A stretch of DNA of 64,000 nucleotides from Serratia sp. FDAARGOS_506 (GTDB lineage Bacteria; Pseudomonadota; Gammaproteobacteria; Enterobacterales; Enterobacteriaceae), in NCBI RefSeq assembly GCF_003812745.1, contig NZ_CP033831.1, positions 558,001 through 622,000 of the forward strand, written 5' to 3'. The stretch's first letter is position 1. Every line of letters starts with the position of its first letter. The notes under the pieces were generated by a model. It worked only from the letters and a program-made list of their open reading frames with translations. It was not told where the DNA came from and did no database searches. Both the position numbers and the translations under genes were made by a program. Positions 34,371 to 40,677 of the stretch are shown one piece after another.

Positions 34371-34398
34371 TTGCGTTGGTTATAGAGTCGTCTACAAT
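34371..34398 (+). promoter_or_regulatory. Candidate sigma-70 promoter of the dioxygenase operon
   Basis: TTGCGT, 16 bp, then TACAAT. This places the start point near 34405 with a leader of about 45 nt. A small inverted repeat AATTC-aatc-GAATT (34396-34409) covers the start point and may be an operator. Confidence 0.45.
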
Positions 34399-34450
34399 TC
34401 AATCGAATTACCCCCTACAACATCAGAAATTATTATTATTAGAGGTGATT

Positions 34451-35095
34451 ATGTTACAGAAACACGAAAACGTAATAAGTATGACTGTGCTAAGCCCGCA
34501 AGCCACCCGACAACTGATGCCTTCATTTTCCTCCTTGCCTCATACGCAACACGCCGACGGAAAATATCGCCTGCGCCGTTATTCGGTCGTTAAATATCTC
34601 AACCCCAACATCGTTGAAGTGGGGCCGCGCACTTTCATGCAGTCCGAGCAGATCAACCACTTCCAGGGCAACGTGGTGCGCCGCTTCGAACCCATCGACA
34701 GCAGCGTACTGCAGAGCGCAGGCATGGCAGAAATGTGCAACCTGTTTGCCGAAAGCAACGAACTGCCGGAAGGCACCGAGATAGAGATCCACCAGATGCG
34801 CGTGGTCGCCATCGAGAAAGATACCCAGGTGGCGCCGGAAGGCATTCACCAGGACGGTTTCGACCATATCGCGATGATCGCTATTCACCGGCACAATATC
34901 GTCGGCGGTGAAATCATGCTGTACGACGACAACCGCCACGATCCTTTCTTTAAAAAAGCGCTGGCGGACGGTGAAGCCGTGTTACTGGCGGACAGCAAAC
35001 TGTGGCACAACGCCACGCCGATCAACGCCGTGAGCCCCGCAGAAGAAGGCCACTTAGATCTCTTCGTCCTCACCGCGCGGGGAGGGAAAGCATGA
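34451..35095 (+). CDS. 2-oxoglutarate/Fe(II) dioxygenase family protein (amino-acid hydroxylase type)
   Basis: The 214-residue protein looks like the 2OG-Fe dioxygenase family that includes bacterial L-isoleucine hydroxylase (IDO). The iron-binding facial triad is visible: H133-x-D135 in GIHQDGFDH and a distal H186 in LWHNATPI; an arginine near residue 210 (LTARG) would hold 2-oxoglutarate. Reaction expected: hydroxylation of a free amino acid or similar small molecule with CO2 and succinate as by-products. The start follows AGAGGTGATT. Its stop overlaps the ATG of the next gene (ATGA), so the two are translationally coupled and probably act on one pathway. The substrate is not known. Confidence 0.75.
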   Translation: MLQKHENVISMTVLSPQATRQLMPSFSSLPHTQHADGKYRLRRYSVVKYLNPNIVEVGPRTFMQSEQINHFQGNVVRRFEPIDSSVLQSAGMAEMCNLFAESNELPEGTEIEIHQMRVVAIEKDTQVAPEGIHQDGFDHIAMIAIHRHNIVGGEIMLYDDNRHDPFFKKALADGEAVLLADSKLWHNATPINAVSPAEEGHLDLFVLTARGGKA

Positions 35096-36324
35096 TCTTT
35101 ACGCCCGAACTCGCCCGACGCCAATTCAGCGCTCTGTCTCAGCAAATCGACGGCAAACCGGCGATCTTTTTCGACGGCCCCGGCGGCGCACAGGTTTCAC
35201 GCGGCGTGCTGGAAAAAATGACGGACTACCTGGGGAAATACAACGCCAACCTGGGCGGCCACTACTTCTCCAGCCGAGTCACCGGCGAGGTGATGGGCCA
35301 GGCGCGGGAATCGGTGCGCGCCCTATTAAATGCGCCGTCGCCCGACAATATCGTCTTCGGCATGAACATGACCACGCTGACTTTCCATCTCAGCCGCATC
35401 ATCAGCCGCGACTGGCAGGCCGGCGATGAGGTCATCGTCACCGCATTGGATCACTACGCCAACGTCTCCAGTTGGCAGCAGGCCGCCGCCGATAAAGGGG
35501 CCGTGGTGCACCAGATACCGCTGGAAAGCGCCGACTGCGCATTGGATGCAGTTAAGGTGTGTGAACGCATCAACGCCAATACCCGCCTGGTGGCGGTCAG
35601 CTACGCCTCCAACGTCACCGGCAGCATCGTCGATATCAAAACCATCGTCGAAGCCGCGCATCGAGTCGGCGCGCAGGTGTATGTCGACGCCGTGCACTAC
35701 GCGCCGCACAACCTGATCGACGTGCAGGCGTTAGGCTGTGATTTCCTGGTGTGCTCCGCCTACAAGTTCTTTGGCCCGCACGTCGGTATGGCCTACATCG
35801 CGCCGCAGTGGCTGCAACGCCTGCGGCCGTACAAAGTCGAGCCGGCCACCGATATCGGCCCCGGCCGTTTCGAGACTGGCACGCAGAACTTCGAAGCGCT
35901 GGCCGGCGTCGCGGCGGCGATCGACTATCTGGCGCAGTGGGGGGCGCCGGGCGCGCCGCTGAGGGAGCGTTTGCAGGAGAGCTTCGCCGCCTACCACCGG
36001 CATGAAGAGGCGCTGTGCCGCCACTTTTTGCAACGGCTGCAGCAACTCGACGGCGTCCGGTTATATGGCAACCCTTTGGCGGACAGTGCACGCCGCACGC
36101 CGACTTTCGCCCTAACCTTCAGCGGCCATACGCCAGACGCTATCGCCCGCCGTCTGGGGCAGCACAACATCTGCGCGGGCAGCGGGCATTTCTATGCATT
36201 GGGCTTGGTGAAACAGCTGGGGTTGCAGGACGGCGGCGTACTGCGCATCGGCATGATGCACTACAACACCCTGGACGAGATCGATACGCTGTTCGAGGTG
36301 ATCGCCGAAGATATCCTCAGCTAG
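35092..36324 (+). CDS. Cysteine-desulfurase-like PLP enzyme (class V aminotransferase fold)
   Basis: The 410-residue protein has a class V fold. The PLP-binding lysine is K225 in CSAYKFFGPHVG, preceded by D199 and H202 in VYVDAVHYAPH that stack on the cofactor; the N-terminal FFDGPGGAQVSRGVLEKM matches the CsdA-like group that lacks a defined sulfur acceptor. I see no conserved mobile-loop cysteine near residue 330-350 except C175-type positions outside it, so real desulfurase activity is doubtful; beta- or gamma-lyase, or aminotransferase action on the hydroxylated product of the coupled dioxygenase is as likely. Start overlaps the previous stop by 4 bp. Confidence 0.8.
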   Translation: MIFTPELARRQFSALSQQIDGKPAIFFDGPGGAQVSRGVLEKMTDYLGKYNANLGGHYFSSRVTGEVMGQARESVRALLNAPSPDNIVFGMNMTTLTFHLSRIISRDWQAGDEVIVTALDHYANVSSWQQAAADKGAVVHQIPLESADCALDAVKVCERINANTRLVAVSYASNVTGSIVDIKTIVEAAHRVGAQVYVDAVHYAPHNLIDVQALGCDFLVCSAYKFFGPHVGMAYIAPQWLQRLRPYKVEPATDIGPGRFETGTQNFEALAGVAAAIDYLAQWGAPGAPLRERLQESFAAYHRHEEALCRHFLQRLQQLDGVRLYGNPLADSARRTPTFALTFSGHTPDAIARRLGQHNICAGSGHFYALGLVKQLGLQDGGVLRIGMMHYNTLDEIDTLFEVIAEDILS

Positions 36325-36362
36325 CCCGCCATATCGGCCCGTTCATGTTATTGGGCGGGCCA

Positions 36363-36385
36363 AAAAGGCAAGCTGCCGGCCTTTT
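36363..36385. terminator. Terminator-like hairpin after the PLP-enzyme gene
   Basis: AAAAGGC and GCCTTTT pair over 7 bp around a 9-nt loop, followed by CTTTC. Just upstream, GCCCGCC...GGCGGGC offers a second, wider pairing. Either could end the two-gene operon. Confidence 0.55.
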
Positions 36386-36514
36386 CTTTCAGGAGAGTCC
36401 ACGGCGCATCGTGCGGTTGTCACCGGATACGGCTGAGGCAGCGCATTGCACGCATTCTCTTTTGACTCGGCAGTGGGCATAATGACAAATACGGTCTGGG
36501 TCAGATGAGTATGA

Positions 36515-37510
36515 ATGGTGAAGTCGCAGCGAATTACGTTAAATGACATTGCTGTACTGGCTGGTGTAACCAAAATGACGGTCAGTCGCTATCTGCGCAC
36601 GCCGGACAGGGTTAAACCAGAAACCGCTGAGCGCATCGCCGCCGTGATCGAGGAGGTCGGCTATCGGGCCGATCCTGACAATCCAGCCCTCTATTCCAAT
36701 AGCCCTCCCCTCATCGGCGTTCTGGTTCCTTCTTTTAACAATCTGATATTTGCTGATGTCCTCGCCGGCATTGAATCCGTGACGTCTGTACATGGCTATC
36801 AAACGCTGGTCGTGAATTATGACTACAACAGCAAACGCGAGGAGGAGCAAATTGCCGCGATCCTGGCTTTTAAGATCAAAGGGCTGCTGCTGACCGAGTC
36901 GGTCCATAGCCTGCGGGCGGAAAAATTCCTGCAGGCGGCCAAAATACCCGTGGCTGAAATCATGGGGCTGTCAGGCAATACAGATCGAATTAACGTGGGT
37001 TTTGATAATGTGAAAGCCGGCTACGATATGACCACCATGTTGCTGGCCAGCGGTAAAAAACGCATTATCTATTTTGGTTCAATGTCTGATATCCGCGATG
37101 AACAGCGTTACACGGGATACTGTCAGGCAATGGCTAACCATGATTTACCTACCGGTCGTATTTCCCCCAATAAGGTCTCTTCCATTTCGATTGGGACAGG
37201 CATGATGACGCTTGCAAGCCAGATGTATCCGGATATGGACGGTATTCTCTGTACCAACGACGATCTGGCCGTGGGAGTGCTGCAGGAATGCCTGGCAACC
37301 GGTATCAGCGTTCCAGCGCAAATTGCCATTGCCGGATTTCACGGCCTTGAGATCGGGCAGATCATTACCCCCCGGTTAGCCAGCGTACTGACGCCACGAT
37401 ATGAGATGGGGAAAGTGGCGACAGAAATCATAATCAAAAAAATTAAAGGGCTACCGACCATTGAACGTGTCGATCTCCACTTCCGCCTGTCAATGGGGGA
37501 GACCATATAG
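36515..37510 (+). CDS. LacI-family regulator, GntR/IdnR-like
   Basis: The 331-residue protein has a LacI-type helix-turn-helix at residues 6-30 (TLNDIAVLAGVTKMTVSRYL) and a sugar-sensing core. The sequence TKMTVSRYLRTPDRVKPET resembles the gluconate regulators GntR and IdnR. Codon use is visibly less GC-rich than in the flanking genes. It is convergent with the gluconate-dehydrogenase-type operon and shares a compact region with ketogluconate genes, so it likely controls them in response to gluconate or a ketogluconate. No gluconate kinase is present in the window. Confidence 0.85.
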   Translation: MVKSQRITLNDIAVLAGVTKMTVSRYLRTPDRVKPETAERIAAVIEEVGYRADPDNPALYSNSPPLIGVLVPSFNNLIFADVLAGIESVTSVHGYQTLVVNYDYNSKREEEQIAAILAFKIKGLLLTESVHSLRAEKFLQAAKIPVAEIMGLSGNTDRINVGFDNVKAGYDMTTMLLASGKKRIIYFGSMSDIRDEQRYTGYCQAMANHDLPTGRISPNKVSSISIGTGMMTLASQMYPDMDGILCTNDDLAVGVLQECLATGISVPAQIAIAGFHGLEIGQIITPRLASVLTPRYEMGKVATEIIIKKIKGLPTIERVDLHFRLSMGETI

Positions 37511-37520
37511 CTTGCCCTAT

Positions 37521-37541
37521 GCCAGTGACTTCATCACTGGC
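37521..37541. terminator. Hairpin between the LacI-type gene and the cytochrome c gene
   Basis: GCCAGTGA-cttca-TCACTGGC is a perfect 8-bp stem. No T-run follows. Its position between convergent genes favours a terminator; it also resembles a CRP-type dyad with a 5-bp spacer, which is less likely here. Confidence 0.45.
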
Positions 37542-37630
37542 CATAACTGCCCGCCTCGTCAAAAGAACATCACTCGCTATCCCGACCAAGATTCGGCCAG
37601 ATGGCGTCACCCACCTGACCGAACGCCTCC

Positions 37631-39028
37631 TTAACGTGCCTTGCGGCGCCGGAGCCAGAATAAGATCAGCAGAATAATGATGACCGCCGCGGTCGCCATG
37701 CCAGGCAGAATCATCGGCTGCGCACGCGCCAACAGCGGTTTCGGGCCCCCGGCGCGAACTTCACTCACGTCGGCCTCAGTCACGCTCAGCGTGCTGTTGC
37801 CGTATTTCTGCAGCACGAAATTAGCGATATCGGCAACCTGCTTATCCGTCAACTCCCCGACATAGGACCCGGTGCCAAAGCTCGGCATCAGTACGTGCTT
37901 GCCGTCGACCCGGCGATCAACCCCTTGCAAAATGGCGGCAATCAGGTTTGCAGGATTGCTCGCGGCCGTGGTGGAGTTGTTGAATAGCGAAGGGTAGGCC
38001 TGGTTCAAACTGCCGCTGCCGTCCGGCTGATGGCAACTGGCGCAGTAGCCGCTGTATAGCGCCTCGCCGCTATTGAGCGTGTGGTTGGCATTGGGCGAGT
38101 TCATGCCGCGGAGATGGTGCTCAACGTTGTAGTGCGCCTGACTTAGGCTATTGCCCTGACGCTCGTCGCCCTGTGACGGCACGGTCTTCAGGTAAGTTGC
38201 AATCGCCTGCAGCTGCCGGTCGGTCAGGTATTGGAAGCTGTGCTCAACGGCTTCCGCCATTGGCCCCGCAGCTTGCGCGCGCCCTTCCGCCCGACCGGTT
38301 TTCAGGTAGTCCACCAGCTCCTTCTCGCTCCAGTTGCCGATCCCTTCCTGGCGATCGGCGGTGATATTCGGTGCGAACCAAGAGCCCAACGATGCCCCCA
38401 TCAGGAAGCGCGAATTGTCCTCCGCCATCAGCATATTACGCGGCGTATGACAGGTTCCGCAGTGAGCCGGCCCCTGCACCAACGCAGCCCCTTCGTTCCA
38501 CGCCTCACCTTTCGTCAGATCGGGGGTAAAGCGCCGATTGTCCAAATAAAGCATGTTCCATACCGCCATGGAGAGGCGGATGTTAAACGGAAACGGCAGA
38601 TCGGTTTGGTGTTTGGCGGGCTCATCGACCGGAGCAACGCCATGCATGAAATAGGTATACAGCGCGTGGATCTCGTCATCACTCAGACGGGTGTAGGCGG
38701 TGTAGGGCATTGCCGGATAGAGATACGACCCATCTTTGCGGATCCCGGAGCGCAGAACGTCGGCAAACGCCGCTTCGGAATAGCCGCCGATGCCGTATTT
38801 TACCGATGGAGTAATATTGGTGGCGTAGATAGTGCCCATGGGGGAAGCAATGCCGTACCCTCCGGCAAAAGGCTTGCCCTGCTGCTGCGTATTCGTATGG
38901 CAAGCCATGCAGTCAGAGGCGATCGCCAGCGCTTGCCCTTTAGCGATCAGATCGCCGTCCTGGGCATGCGCCGCAAAACCGCTTCCCAGCAACAGCGTCA
39001 CTGCCAGCGAGTGGGTGATTTTATTCAT
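37631..39028 (-). CDS. Gluconate-2-dehydrogenase-type cytochrome c subunit (three haems)
   Basis: This periplasmic subunit transfers electrons from the FAD subunit to ubiquinone. The 465-residue protein has a signal peptide (cleavage near AHA-QD), three c-type haem sites at C40MACH44, C190GTCH194 and C329SCH-type CASCH (329-333), and a C-terminal membrane anchor (ATAAVIIILLILFWL) followed by RRRKAR. This layout matches the cytochrome subunit of FAD-dependent gluconate, sorbitol and alcohol dehydrogenases. Its ATG overlaps the end of the flavoprotein gene by 4 bp. Third gene of the small-large-cytochrome operon. Confidence 0.92.
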   Translation of the reverse strand: MNKITHSLAVTLLLGSGFAAHAQDGDLIAKGQALAIASDCMACHTNTQQQGKPFAGGYGIASPMGTIYATNITPSVKYGIGGYSEAAFADVLRSGIRKDGSYLYPAMPYTAYTRLSDDEIHALYTYFMHGVAPVDEPAKHQTDLPFPFNIRLSMAVWNMLYLDNRRFTPDLTKGEAWNEGAALVQGPAHCGTCHTPRNMLMAEDNSRFLMGASLGSWFAPNITADRQEGIGNWSEKELVDYLKTGRAEGRAQAAGPMAEAVEHSFQYLTDRQLQAIATYLKTVPSQGDERQGNSLSQAHYNVEHHLRGMNSPNANHTLNSGEALYSGYCASCHQPDGSGSLNQAYPSLFNNSTTAASNPANLIAAILQGVDRRVDGKHVLMPSFGTGSYVGELTDKQVADIANFVLQKYGNSTLSVTEADVSEVRAGGPKPLLARAQPMILPGMATAAVIIILLILFWLRRRKAR

Positions 39029-40677
39029 TTGCTCTCCAGGGCTCGAAGTACGTCATTGGCCGCCTTGAGTCCAAGAGCCGCCATCGTCAACGTGGTGTTG
39101 ACAACGCTGGCTGAAACCATGGCGCCTCCCCCCGGGATCCAAAGGTTGTCGTGATCGTGGGCGCGGCAATTACCGTTCACCACCGAGTTCGCGGGGTCGC
39201 TACCCATGATCGTGCCGCCCATAATGTGGTTGTTGGCATTCAGCTTGTCGTTAATCACAAACTCTTGCGCATCAAACAAGTCGCCAATCTGCCGTAGCTG
39301 GGTTTTGACCACGTCCAGCCCTTTGCGCACGTAATCGCCGACGTCGTAGTGGATGTCCGGGCAGGCCAGGCCATGCTTGTCTTTACGGGTGGGGCTCAGG
39401 GTAAGACGGTTGTTCGGATCCGGCAGCGGTTCCAGGCTGATGGAAAGATCCACCGAACGGCTGGCGCGATCGCGCACTTCATCCTGCAGCGCCTTGCCGA
39501 CCTTACCCGTTTTCAGTACTTCAAGGGCGGAGGGGATCACCCGGTTGATGTTGTTGACGATGATCTTGTTGGCGGAGTGGTCGCTGCGGAACGCACCGTC
39601 ACGATACCCCACCATGCAGCTGCTCTGCGCCGGGCCGCGGCCGATCCACAGGGCCTCTCGCGCCAGGAAGGAGCAGTGCAGGCCAGAGTGATCCATCATG
39701 TTGCGCCCCACCTGATCCGAACTGTTCGCGATGCCGTTCGGGTTCTTTTCGTTGGCCGCCAGCAGCAGCAAGCGCGGGTTCTCAATCCCGTTGCAGGCCA
39801 GAACGAACGTTTTACCGATCGCCCGATGGGAGTTGTGCGCCGTGTCGTACCAGTGAACGGCGGTGACGCGGTTATTGTCGTCGGTATCAATTTTGTACAC
39901 CACCGCCTCGGGGATCACCTTCGCCCCCTTGTGTTCGGCCCGTTCAACGTGGTGAATGCCGTTGTACATTGCCCCGATCGGGCAAATCGGCTGGCAATTG
40001 TTATTGCCGCAGCAGGTGGGCCGTCCGTTCCAGGGCCGTGTGCTGCGGCCTTGCGGAATGGGCACCGATTTAAAACCGTGAGGATTAACAATTTCAGCAA
40101 TGCGTCTGTCGCCGTAGGCCCAGGGCACCATGTCCATCGGGTAAGGTCCGCTGCGTTCCGCAGGGGACTGCCACTCCGGATTATTCGGGCCGGCAACGCC
40201 TATCTCCTCTTCGGCTTTCGCGTACCACGGTTCGATGTCTTCGTAGGAAATAGGCCAGTCTCTCCCCACGCCATAGAGAGATTTCATGCGAAAATCATTG
40301 GGGTGGTTGCGCCAGCAAGAAGCGGCCCAGTGCCAGGTGGTTCCCCCTACCACACGCAAATAGCCCTGTTTAAAGCCAGATCCATTGGGGCCAGTCAGTT
40401 TGATATAGTCGTTTTCCGGGAAATAGAGCGGCGCGGTGGCATACTCCGATTGCGGGTAAAGCCCCTGAAAATCCGACCCCGCACGATTGTGCAGTGGCAT
40501 ATTGCGCCAGTTTTCCACCGCCTGAGCGCGCTCAATGCGCGGGCCAGCCTCAAGTACCAGCACCGAGTAGCCTTGGCTCACCAAAGCATCCGCCATCAGA
40601 CCGCCCACAATACCGGAACCGACAATGACGACATCGGCCTCTGCATCGCCGGAAGCATTAATTATTGGGCTTTTCAC
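39025..40677 (-). CDS. GMC-family flavoprotein, gluconate-2-dehydrogenase large subunit
   Basis: This catalytic FAD subunit has 550 residues. The dinucleotide motif DVVIVGSGIVGGLMADAL is near residue 15, and the GMC C-terminal region carries NNHIMGGTIMGSDPANSVV with the catalytic histidine/asparagine area. It has no signal peptide of its own, as usual: it is exported bound to the Tat-type small subunit. The combination with a three-haem cytochrome and a short subunit identifies a gluconate-2-dehydrogenase type complex oxidising D-gluconate to 2-ketogluconate in the periplasm; 2-ketogluconate dehydrogenase has the same layout and cannot be excluded. Overlaps both neighbours by 4 bp. Confidence 0.9.
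   Translation of the reverse strand: MKSPIINASGDAEADVVIVGSGIVGGLMADALVSQGYSVLVLEAGPRIERAQAVENWRNMPLHNRAGSDFQGLYPQSEYATAPLYFPENDYIKLTGPNGSGFKQGYLRVVGGTTWHWAASCWRNHPNDFRMKSLYGVGRDWPISYEDIEPWYAKAEEEIGVAGPNNPEWQSPAERSGPYPMDMVPWAYGDRRIAEIVNPHGFKSVPIPQGRSTRPWNGRPTCCGNNNCQPICPIGAMYNGIHHVERAEHKGAKVIPEAVVYKIDTDDNNRVTAVHWYDTAHNSHRAIGKTFVLACNGIENPRLLLLAANEKNPNGIANSSDQVGRNMMDHSGLHCSFLAREALWIGRGPAQSSCMVGYRDGAFRSDHSANKIIVNNINRVIPSALEVLKTGKVGKALQDEVRDRASRSVDLSISLEPLPDPNNRLTLSPTRKDKHGLACPDIHYDVGDYVRKGLDVVKTQLRQIGDLFDAQEFVINDKLNANNHIMGGTIMGSDPANSVVNGNCRAHDHDNLWIPGGGAMVSASVVNTTLTMAALGLKAANDVLRALESK

Follow-up and report, generated by a model that had tools for sequence, protein, structure and literature searches.

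Two adjacent genes on the plus strand were analyzed in the window, the whole stretch of 64,000 nucleotides of Serratia sp. FDAARGOS_506 DNA under study, and their coordinates and those of the associated features were collected in Table 1. The first gene (DOX) encodes a putative Fe(II)/2-oxoglutarate dioxygenase and the second a class-V PLP enzyme. The stop-start overlap ATGA, which a preliminary description of this DNA had pointed out, was seen at the junction, and overlaps of 4-26 bases were found between the two genes in other genomes. Longer alternative open reading frames exist, starting from TTG at 34376 and from GTG at 35002, and the starts at 34451 and 35092 were preferred because they were backed by the relatives and by the conserved AGAGGTGA site. 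Both frames were intact, and purifying selection was found on each of them, with dN/dS of about 0.07-0.15. The pair had also been credited with a promoter and a terminator of its own. Judged from the sequence, both are no more than plausible: TTGCGT-N16-TACAAT as the promoter of the pair was not listed by a simple sigma-70 consensus scan, and the terminator hairpin was without conservation in other Serratia. In the window the pair was flanked by genes for a DUF308 protein and an IdnR-like regulator. This regulator, of the LacI family, faces two minus-strand genes (36515-40677 for the regulator and both genes), whose products by eye resemble the cytochrome c and FAD subunits of a membrane gluconate-type dehydrogenase, an ordinary arrangement.

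Table 1. Features of the DOX/PLP locus, in window positions
Feature	Position	Strand	Basis
Plausible promoter TTGCGT-N16-TACAAT	34371..34398	+	within a stretch conserved across 12 Serratia sequences
Ribosome-binding site AGAGGTGA of DOX	34441..34448	+	sequence; conserved in Serratia
DOX, Fe(II)/2-oxoglutarate dioxygenase, PF10014, 214 aa	34451..35095	+	profile match, triad alignment, model
DOX iron ligands H133 and D135, codons	34847..34855	+	invariant in alignment
DOX third iron ligand H186, codon	35006..35008	+	invariant in alignment
ATGA stop-start overlap, DOX/PLP	35092..35095	+	sequence
PLP, class-V PLP enzyme, TIGR01976, 410 aa	35092..36324	+	profile matches, residue alignment, model
PLP Schiff-base lysine K225, codon, Tyr224 just before	35764..35766	+	invariant
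PLP Tyr368 codon, position of desulfurase catalytic Cys	36193..36195	+	alignment with SufS, CsdA
Plausible terminator: hairpin 36336-36361, then T-rich stretch	36336..36390	+	z=-2.05

In the profile search, DOX matched PF10014 with 186 bits (curated cut-off 23.1, E=7e-55). The H-x-D...H triad of H133, D135 and H186, described earlier as intact, was invariant in 20 of 20 aligned sequences. The resemblance to amino-acid hydroxylases was borne out by the family and by the model (pLDDT 90), of which the nearest structures in the PDB were HrmJ, BelL, 3pl0 (a homolog of BsmA) and IDO, an isoleucine hydroxylase; the closest named relatives of the window DOX were from Serratia species. Characterized enzymes of PF10014 place the hydroxyl group on C4 when they act on free L-Leu, L-Ile or L-Thr; for Leu this holds with both IDO and HilB, and Met is also among the substrates of the family (PMC3684760). 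By inference from this family, DOX was predicted to hydroxylate a free L-amino acid at C4, L-leucine being the best guess. DOX is like IDO, HilB, HrmJ and BelL in family, triad and fold, but these enzymes are encoded in other operons (those of Hil, IDO, hormaomycin and belactosin), whereas the paired DOX proteins form a group of their own and are accompanied by the PLP enzyme. The core of the Hil operon in Pantoea and Pseudomonas consists of hilR, hilP, hilA (PF13640), hilB and hilC (PMC3684760), and it was absent among the genes flanking DOX and PLP.

PF10014 was also observed in other settings. A second dioxygenase of this family, with 293 residues, is encoded in the same genome outside the window (L093:6740-9156, C2 about 681740-684156), directly upstream of the gene for a BrnQ branched-chain amino-acid transporter and close to an EamA-type exporter gene of the opposite strand; this dioxygenase fell outside the paired DOX group. 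In L171 (G473:C251:29500-33500), a frame of 714 residues carries PF10014 behind an apparent ATP-grasp amino-acid ligase, identified by eye, with an MFS gene adjoining, and this fusion may make a hydroxylated dipeptide.

The co-occurrence of the two genes was evaluated in a sample of 395 genomes of the order. A PLP match was found in 60 genomes, and 59 of these matches were more than 50% identical to the window PLP enzyme. PF10014 was present in all 59, compared with 18 of the 336 other genomes, and the 60th match, only 34% identical, came from a genome without PF10014. The associated p value (1e-54) is indicative only, since the sampled genomes are related. The two genes were adjacent on the same strand in 52 of the 59 genomes, lay within 5 kb of each other in 4, and were unlinked in 3 (group f194, which shares its gene context with an Aeromonas plasmid). 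In group f120, which matches a Piscirickettsia context, both genes were present on different contigs. The identities of the groups were derived from synteny, from named plasmid records and from the layout of the replicons. The adjacent pair was also found in named records of Salinivibrio, Photobacterium and the cyanobacterium Gloeothece verrucosa. The preliminary description had left the conservation of the pair to be checked, and it proved to be wide outside this strain: DOX and PLP are a real, widely conserved two-gene unit.

The flanking genes differed between loci, even within Serratia, so that the module was taken to be DOX and PLP alone. A larger operon was rejected, no third gene recurring across the groups; only three loci had a Bcr/CflA-type MFS exporter gene close to the pair. 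The PLP enzyme was found in 92 of 118 genomes of a Vibrio-like genus, a label that rests on synteny, on a V. campbellii second-replicon match and on named Vibrionaceae records. In several of these genomes, the match to the V. campbellii stretch was on the second contig. In this group only, the pair was adjoined by cydC-cydD-trxB-like genes, which in V. cholerae are VC1180-VC1182; the TIGR01976 family takes its name from VC1184. The PLP gene was split or carried stops in two genomes of the genus (G706:C37 and G794:C529), which suggests recent loss or assembly error.

Phylogenetic trees were built for both proteins. All co-occurring DOX proteins formed one group (support 94/91; SH-aLRT 82 in a second tree), and the sampled PF10014 proteins of PLP-less genomes and the same-genome paralogs fell outside it. 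The pairwise distances of DOX and PLP were correlated (r=0.51, Mantel p=0.005), and r was 0.69 without group f2. In this group (L143, L091), DOX was about 28% identical to the window DOX and its PLP partner 63%, which may mean that the hydroxylase evolved fast or was replaced long ago. That the two genes are chance neighbours was rejected on the co-occurrence, the adjacency and the single DOX group. The PLP enzymes of the Vibrio-like family taken together with those of Salinivibrio did not form one clade (AU p=0.002), which pointed to horizontal movement. Acquisition of the pair by Serratia from Vibrio is not claimed, the exact nesting of Serratia being undecided (p=0.13).

The PLP enzyme matched Aminotran_5 (E=5e-69) and, with 504.5 bits against a curated cut-off of 352.35, TIGR01976, the VC1184 family. 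K225, D199, H121 and R385 were retained, and neither this active site nor that of DOX looked broken by residue alignment. The best PDB match of a profile of 18 relatives was FGM3 (8.3e-79, full-length, profile positions 2-409), followed by SufS (4e-76), a narrow lead in sequence. Y224, H230, H390 and D120 were common to FGM3 and absent from the desulfurases, and the Y-K, GPH and HYNT motifs were found in both homologous proteins. Among the conserved positions, 8 matched FGM3 and not the desulfurases, while 9 matched the desulfurases and not FGM3. In the tree, FGM3 attached between two clades, nearer TIGR01976, on a long branch that makes this weak evidence, and no FGM3 entry was present among the 50 structural matches from the PDB listed for the PLP model. 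The base of FGM3 is Y225 (PMC10367076), and its alignment with the tyrosines of the PLP enzyme is uncertain.

In the fusaoctaxin cluster of Fusarium graminearum, Fgm1 hydroxylates C4 of L-Arg, then Fgm3 (FGM3, PDB 9x4u) cleaves the Cbeta-Cgamma bond to yield L-Ala and an aldehyde (PMC10967133; PMC10367076). The chemistry of the pair was inferred from this precedent, because a C4 hydroxylase together with an FGM3-like enzyme repeats the logic of Fgm1/Fgm3 with a different oxygenase: C4 is hydroxylated, and a class-V PLP enzyme then splits the product into L-alanine and a carbonyl compound. Fgm1 is a P450 acting on arginine within a peptide biosynthesis cluster, whereas the pair has a PF10014 dioxygenase and consists of two genes alone. 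In the proposed route, DOX, as expected from its family, would introduce a hydroxyl group at C4 (gamma) of a free L-amino acid with Fe(II), 2-oxoglutarate and O2. The PLP enzyme would then, by homology with FGM3, take up the hydroxylated amino acid in an aldimine that displaces K225 and isomerize it to a ketimine. The Cbeta-Cgamma bond would be broken by retro-aldol cleavage, a base, for which Tyr224 and His390 come into question, taking the proton of the gamma-hydroxyl group; L-alanine would form once the enamine is protonated, and the side chain would depart as a carbonyl compound. UstD (PDB 7mkv), a decarboxylative aldolase and likewise a class-V PLP enzyme, works in the opposite direction to this step and makes gamma-hydroxy amino acids via a nucleophilic enamine, but it is more distant in sequence (7e-23) and its enamine comes from aspartate decarboxylation. 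The preliminary description had suggested hydroxylation of an amino acid, without naming a substrate, and then its cleavage or transamination; this was supported and narrowed to retro-aldol cleavage of Cbeta-Cgamma, both activities being inferred. Without activity data, C4 hydroxylation with PLP-dependent retro-aldol cleavage, whatever the substrate, is regarded as likely.

With L-leucine as the substrate, 4-hydroxyleucine would be converted to acetone and L-alanine, and the pair would act as a leucine-to-alanine shunt that vents acetone. Nemecek-Marshall and colleagues are said to have reported in 1999 that vibrios and Photobacterium convert L-leucine to acetone in an O2-dependent manner, that the methyl deuteriums of isopropyl-d7-leucine are retained in the acetone, and that alpha-ketoisocaproate is also converted; the enzymes were reportedly not identified. 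Leucine was considered the likeliest substrate because this pathway would be explained, and the O2 dependence, the origin of acetone from the isopropyl group and the retained methyl deuteriums are each predicted by the proposed route. Transamination to leucine would explain the conversion of alpha-ketoisocaproate, and a ketoacid oxygenase route is possible as well. The pathway shares with the pair the genera Vibrio and Photobacterium, but it is a phenotype without assigned enzymes, and its link to the pair is inferred. Leucine as substrate with acetone as product, guessed from family precedent and the reported phenotype, was judged evenly balanced. The fuller proposal, that the pair supplies the missing enzymes of the O2-dependent vibrio pathway, an L-leucine 4-hydroxylase and a PLP-dependent 4-hydroxyleucine retro-aldolase, also in Serratia and a cyanobacterium, is tentative and falls just short of that balance.

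The same hydroxylase and retro-aldolase could act on another substrate, in catabolism or in small-molecule biosynthesis, for example on Ile to give 2-aminobutyrate and acetaldehyde, or on Arg, Lys, Orn or Glu. The other substrates of PF10014 members (Ile, Thr and Met), the use of 4-hydroxyarginine by FGM3, and the rhizobial relatives that adjoin genes for aldehyde dehydrogenase and amino-acid transporters all lend it support, but an aldehyde product usually needs a partner enzyme. No aldehyde-processing gene, such as one for an aldehyde dehydrogenase, recurred near the gammaproteobacterial pairs, which fits an inert ketone product, and under this alternative the acetone phenotype of vibrios would be left unexplained. 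It was considered unlikely, though the strongest of the alternatives weighed.

Less probable still is that DOX hydroxylates an amino acid and the PLP enzyme then performs gamma-elimination, cyclization, beta-elimination, decarboxylation or transamination. PLP enzymes of fold type I are highly varied, and GntC cyclizes the same 4-hydroxyarginine that FGM3 cleaves (PMC10367076). However, GntC belongs to a different aminotransferase class and was only a weak match to the PLP enzyme (28.5 bits, cut-off 415), FGM3 being much closer to the window protein.

The preliminary description had noted that the PLP enzyme keeps its lysine and shows no clear desulfurase cysteine, and both points were upheld. 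SufS and CsdA share with it the fold and the core PLP-binding residues: the nearest structures to the PLP model (pLDDT 90) were SufS in the PDB structure search, at about 31% identity and TM 0.90. Differently, the catalytic Cys of their C-terminal loop is replaced by Tyr368, which was invariant in the 18 aligned TIGR01976 rows, only rows with that column aligned being counted; FGM3 has Phe at this position. The enzyme also has a dioxygenase partner, and its scores were far below the desulfurase cut-offs (sufS 225 bits against 475; CsdA 145 against 494). Although the similarity to SufS, the automatic name 'cysteine desulfurase-like' and the listing of vc1184 among Fe-S genes in one paper speak for a cysteine desulfurase or selenocysteine lyase in Fe-S or sulfur supply with DOX as an unrelated neighbour, this was rejected as highly improbable on the missing Cys, the low desulfurase scores, the separate SufS and CsdA encoded in the same genome, and the strict co-occurrence with one DOX group. 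The name 'desulfurase' is probably wrong for this enzyme, and the listing of vc1184 probably reflects that inherited name.

A two-enzyme oxidative cleavage module was the best explanation overall, held with no more confidence than doubt. The genes, their coupling, their co-conservation and the residues were observed directly, the chemistry is an inference, and the substrate is a guess based on outside data. Against the explanation stand the narrow FGM3 lead, the 9 positions against 8, the structural matches to SufS and the 28% identity of the f2 DOX. The literature searched contained no description of the pair or of its function, in agreement with the earlier statement that no pathway was known for it, and the pair appears as a new combination of known enzyme families in bacteria. 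If the explanation is true, a bacterial two-gene module for oxidative C-C cleavage would be defined, and the misleading name 'cysteine desulfurase-like' would be replaced for a family spread over several phyla. Candidate genes would also be provided for the biological formation of acetone from leucine in marine bacteria, which bears on ocean and air chemistry; to our knowledge, no enzymes have been reported for this route. Additionally, a retro-aldolase that naturally releases a ketone would be of interest for the production of gamma-hydroxy amino acids.

Some TIGR01976 relatives were observed that had no PF10014 gene next to them. On Rhizobium plasmids (L156, L157) they lie beside genes for an aldehyde dehydrogenase, an M20 hydrolase, an HTH-cupin regulator and amino-acid transporters, and in L158 beside agmatinase and creatininase-type genes. 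The cupin gene was ruled out as a swapped hydroxylase, since it encodes the HTH-cupin regulator. These relatives perhaps act on other substrates by the same chemistry.
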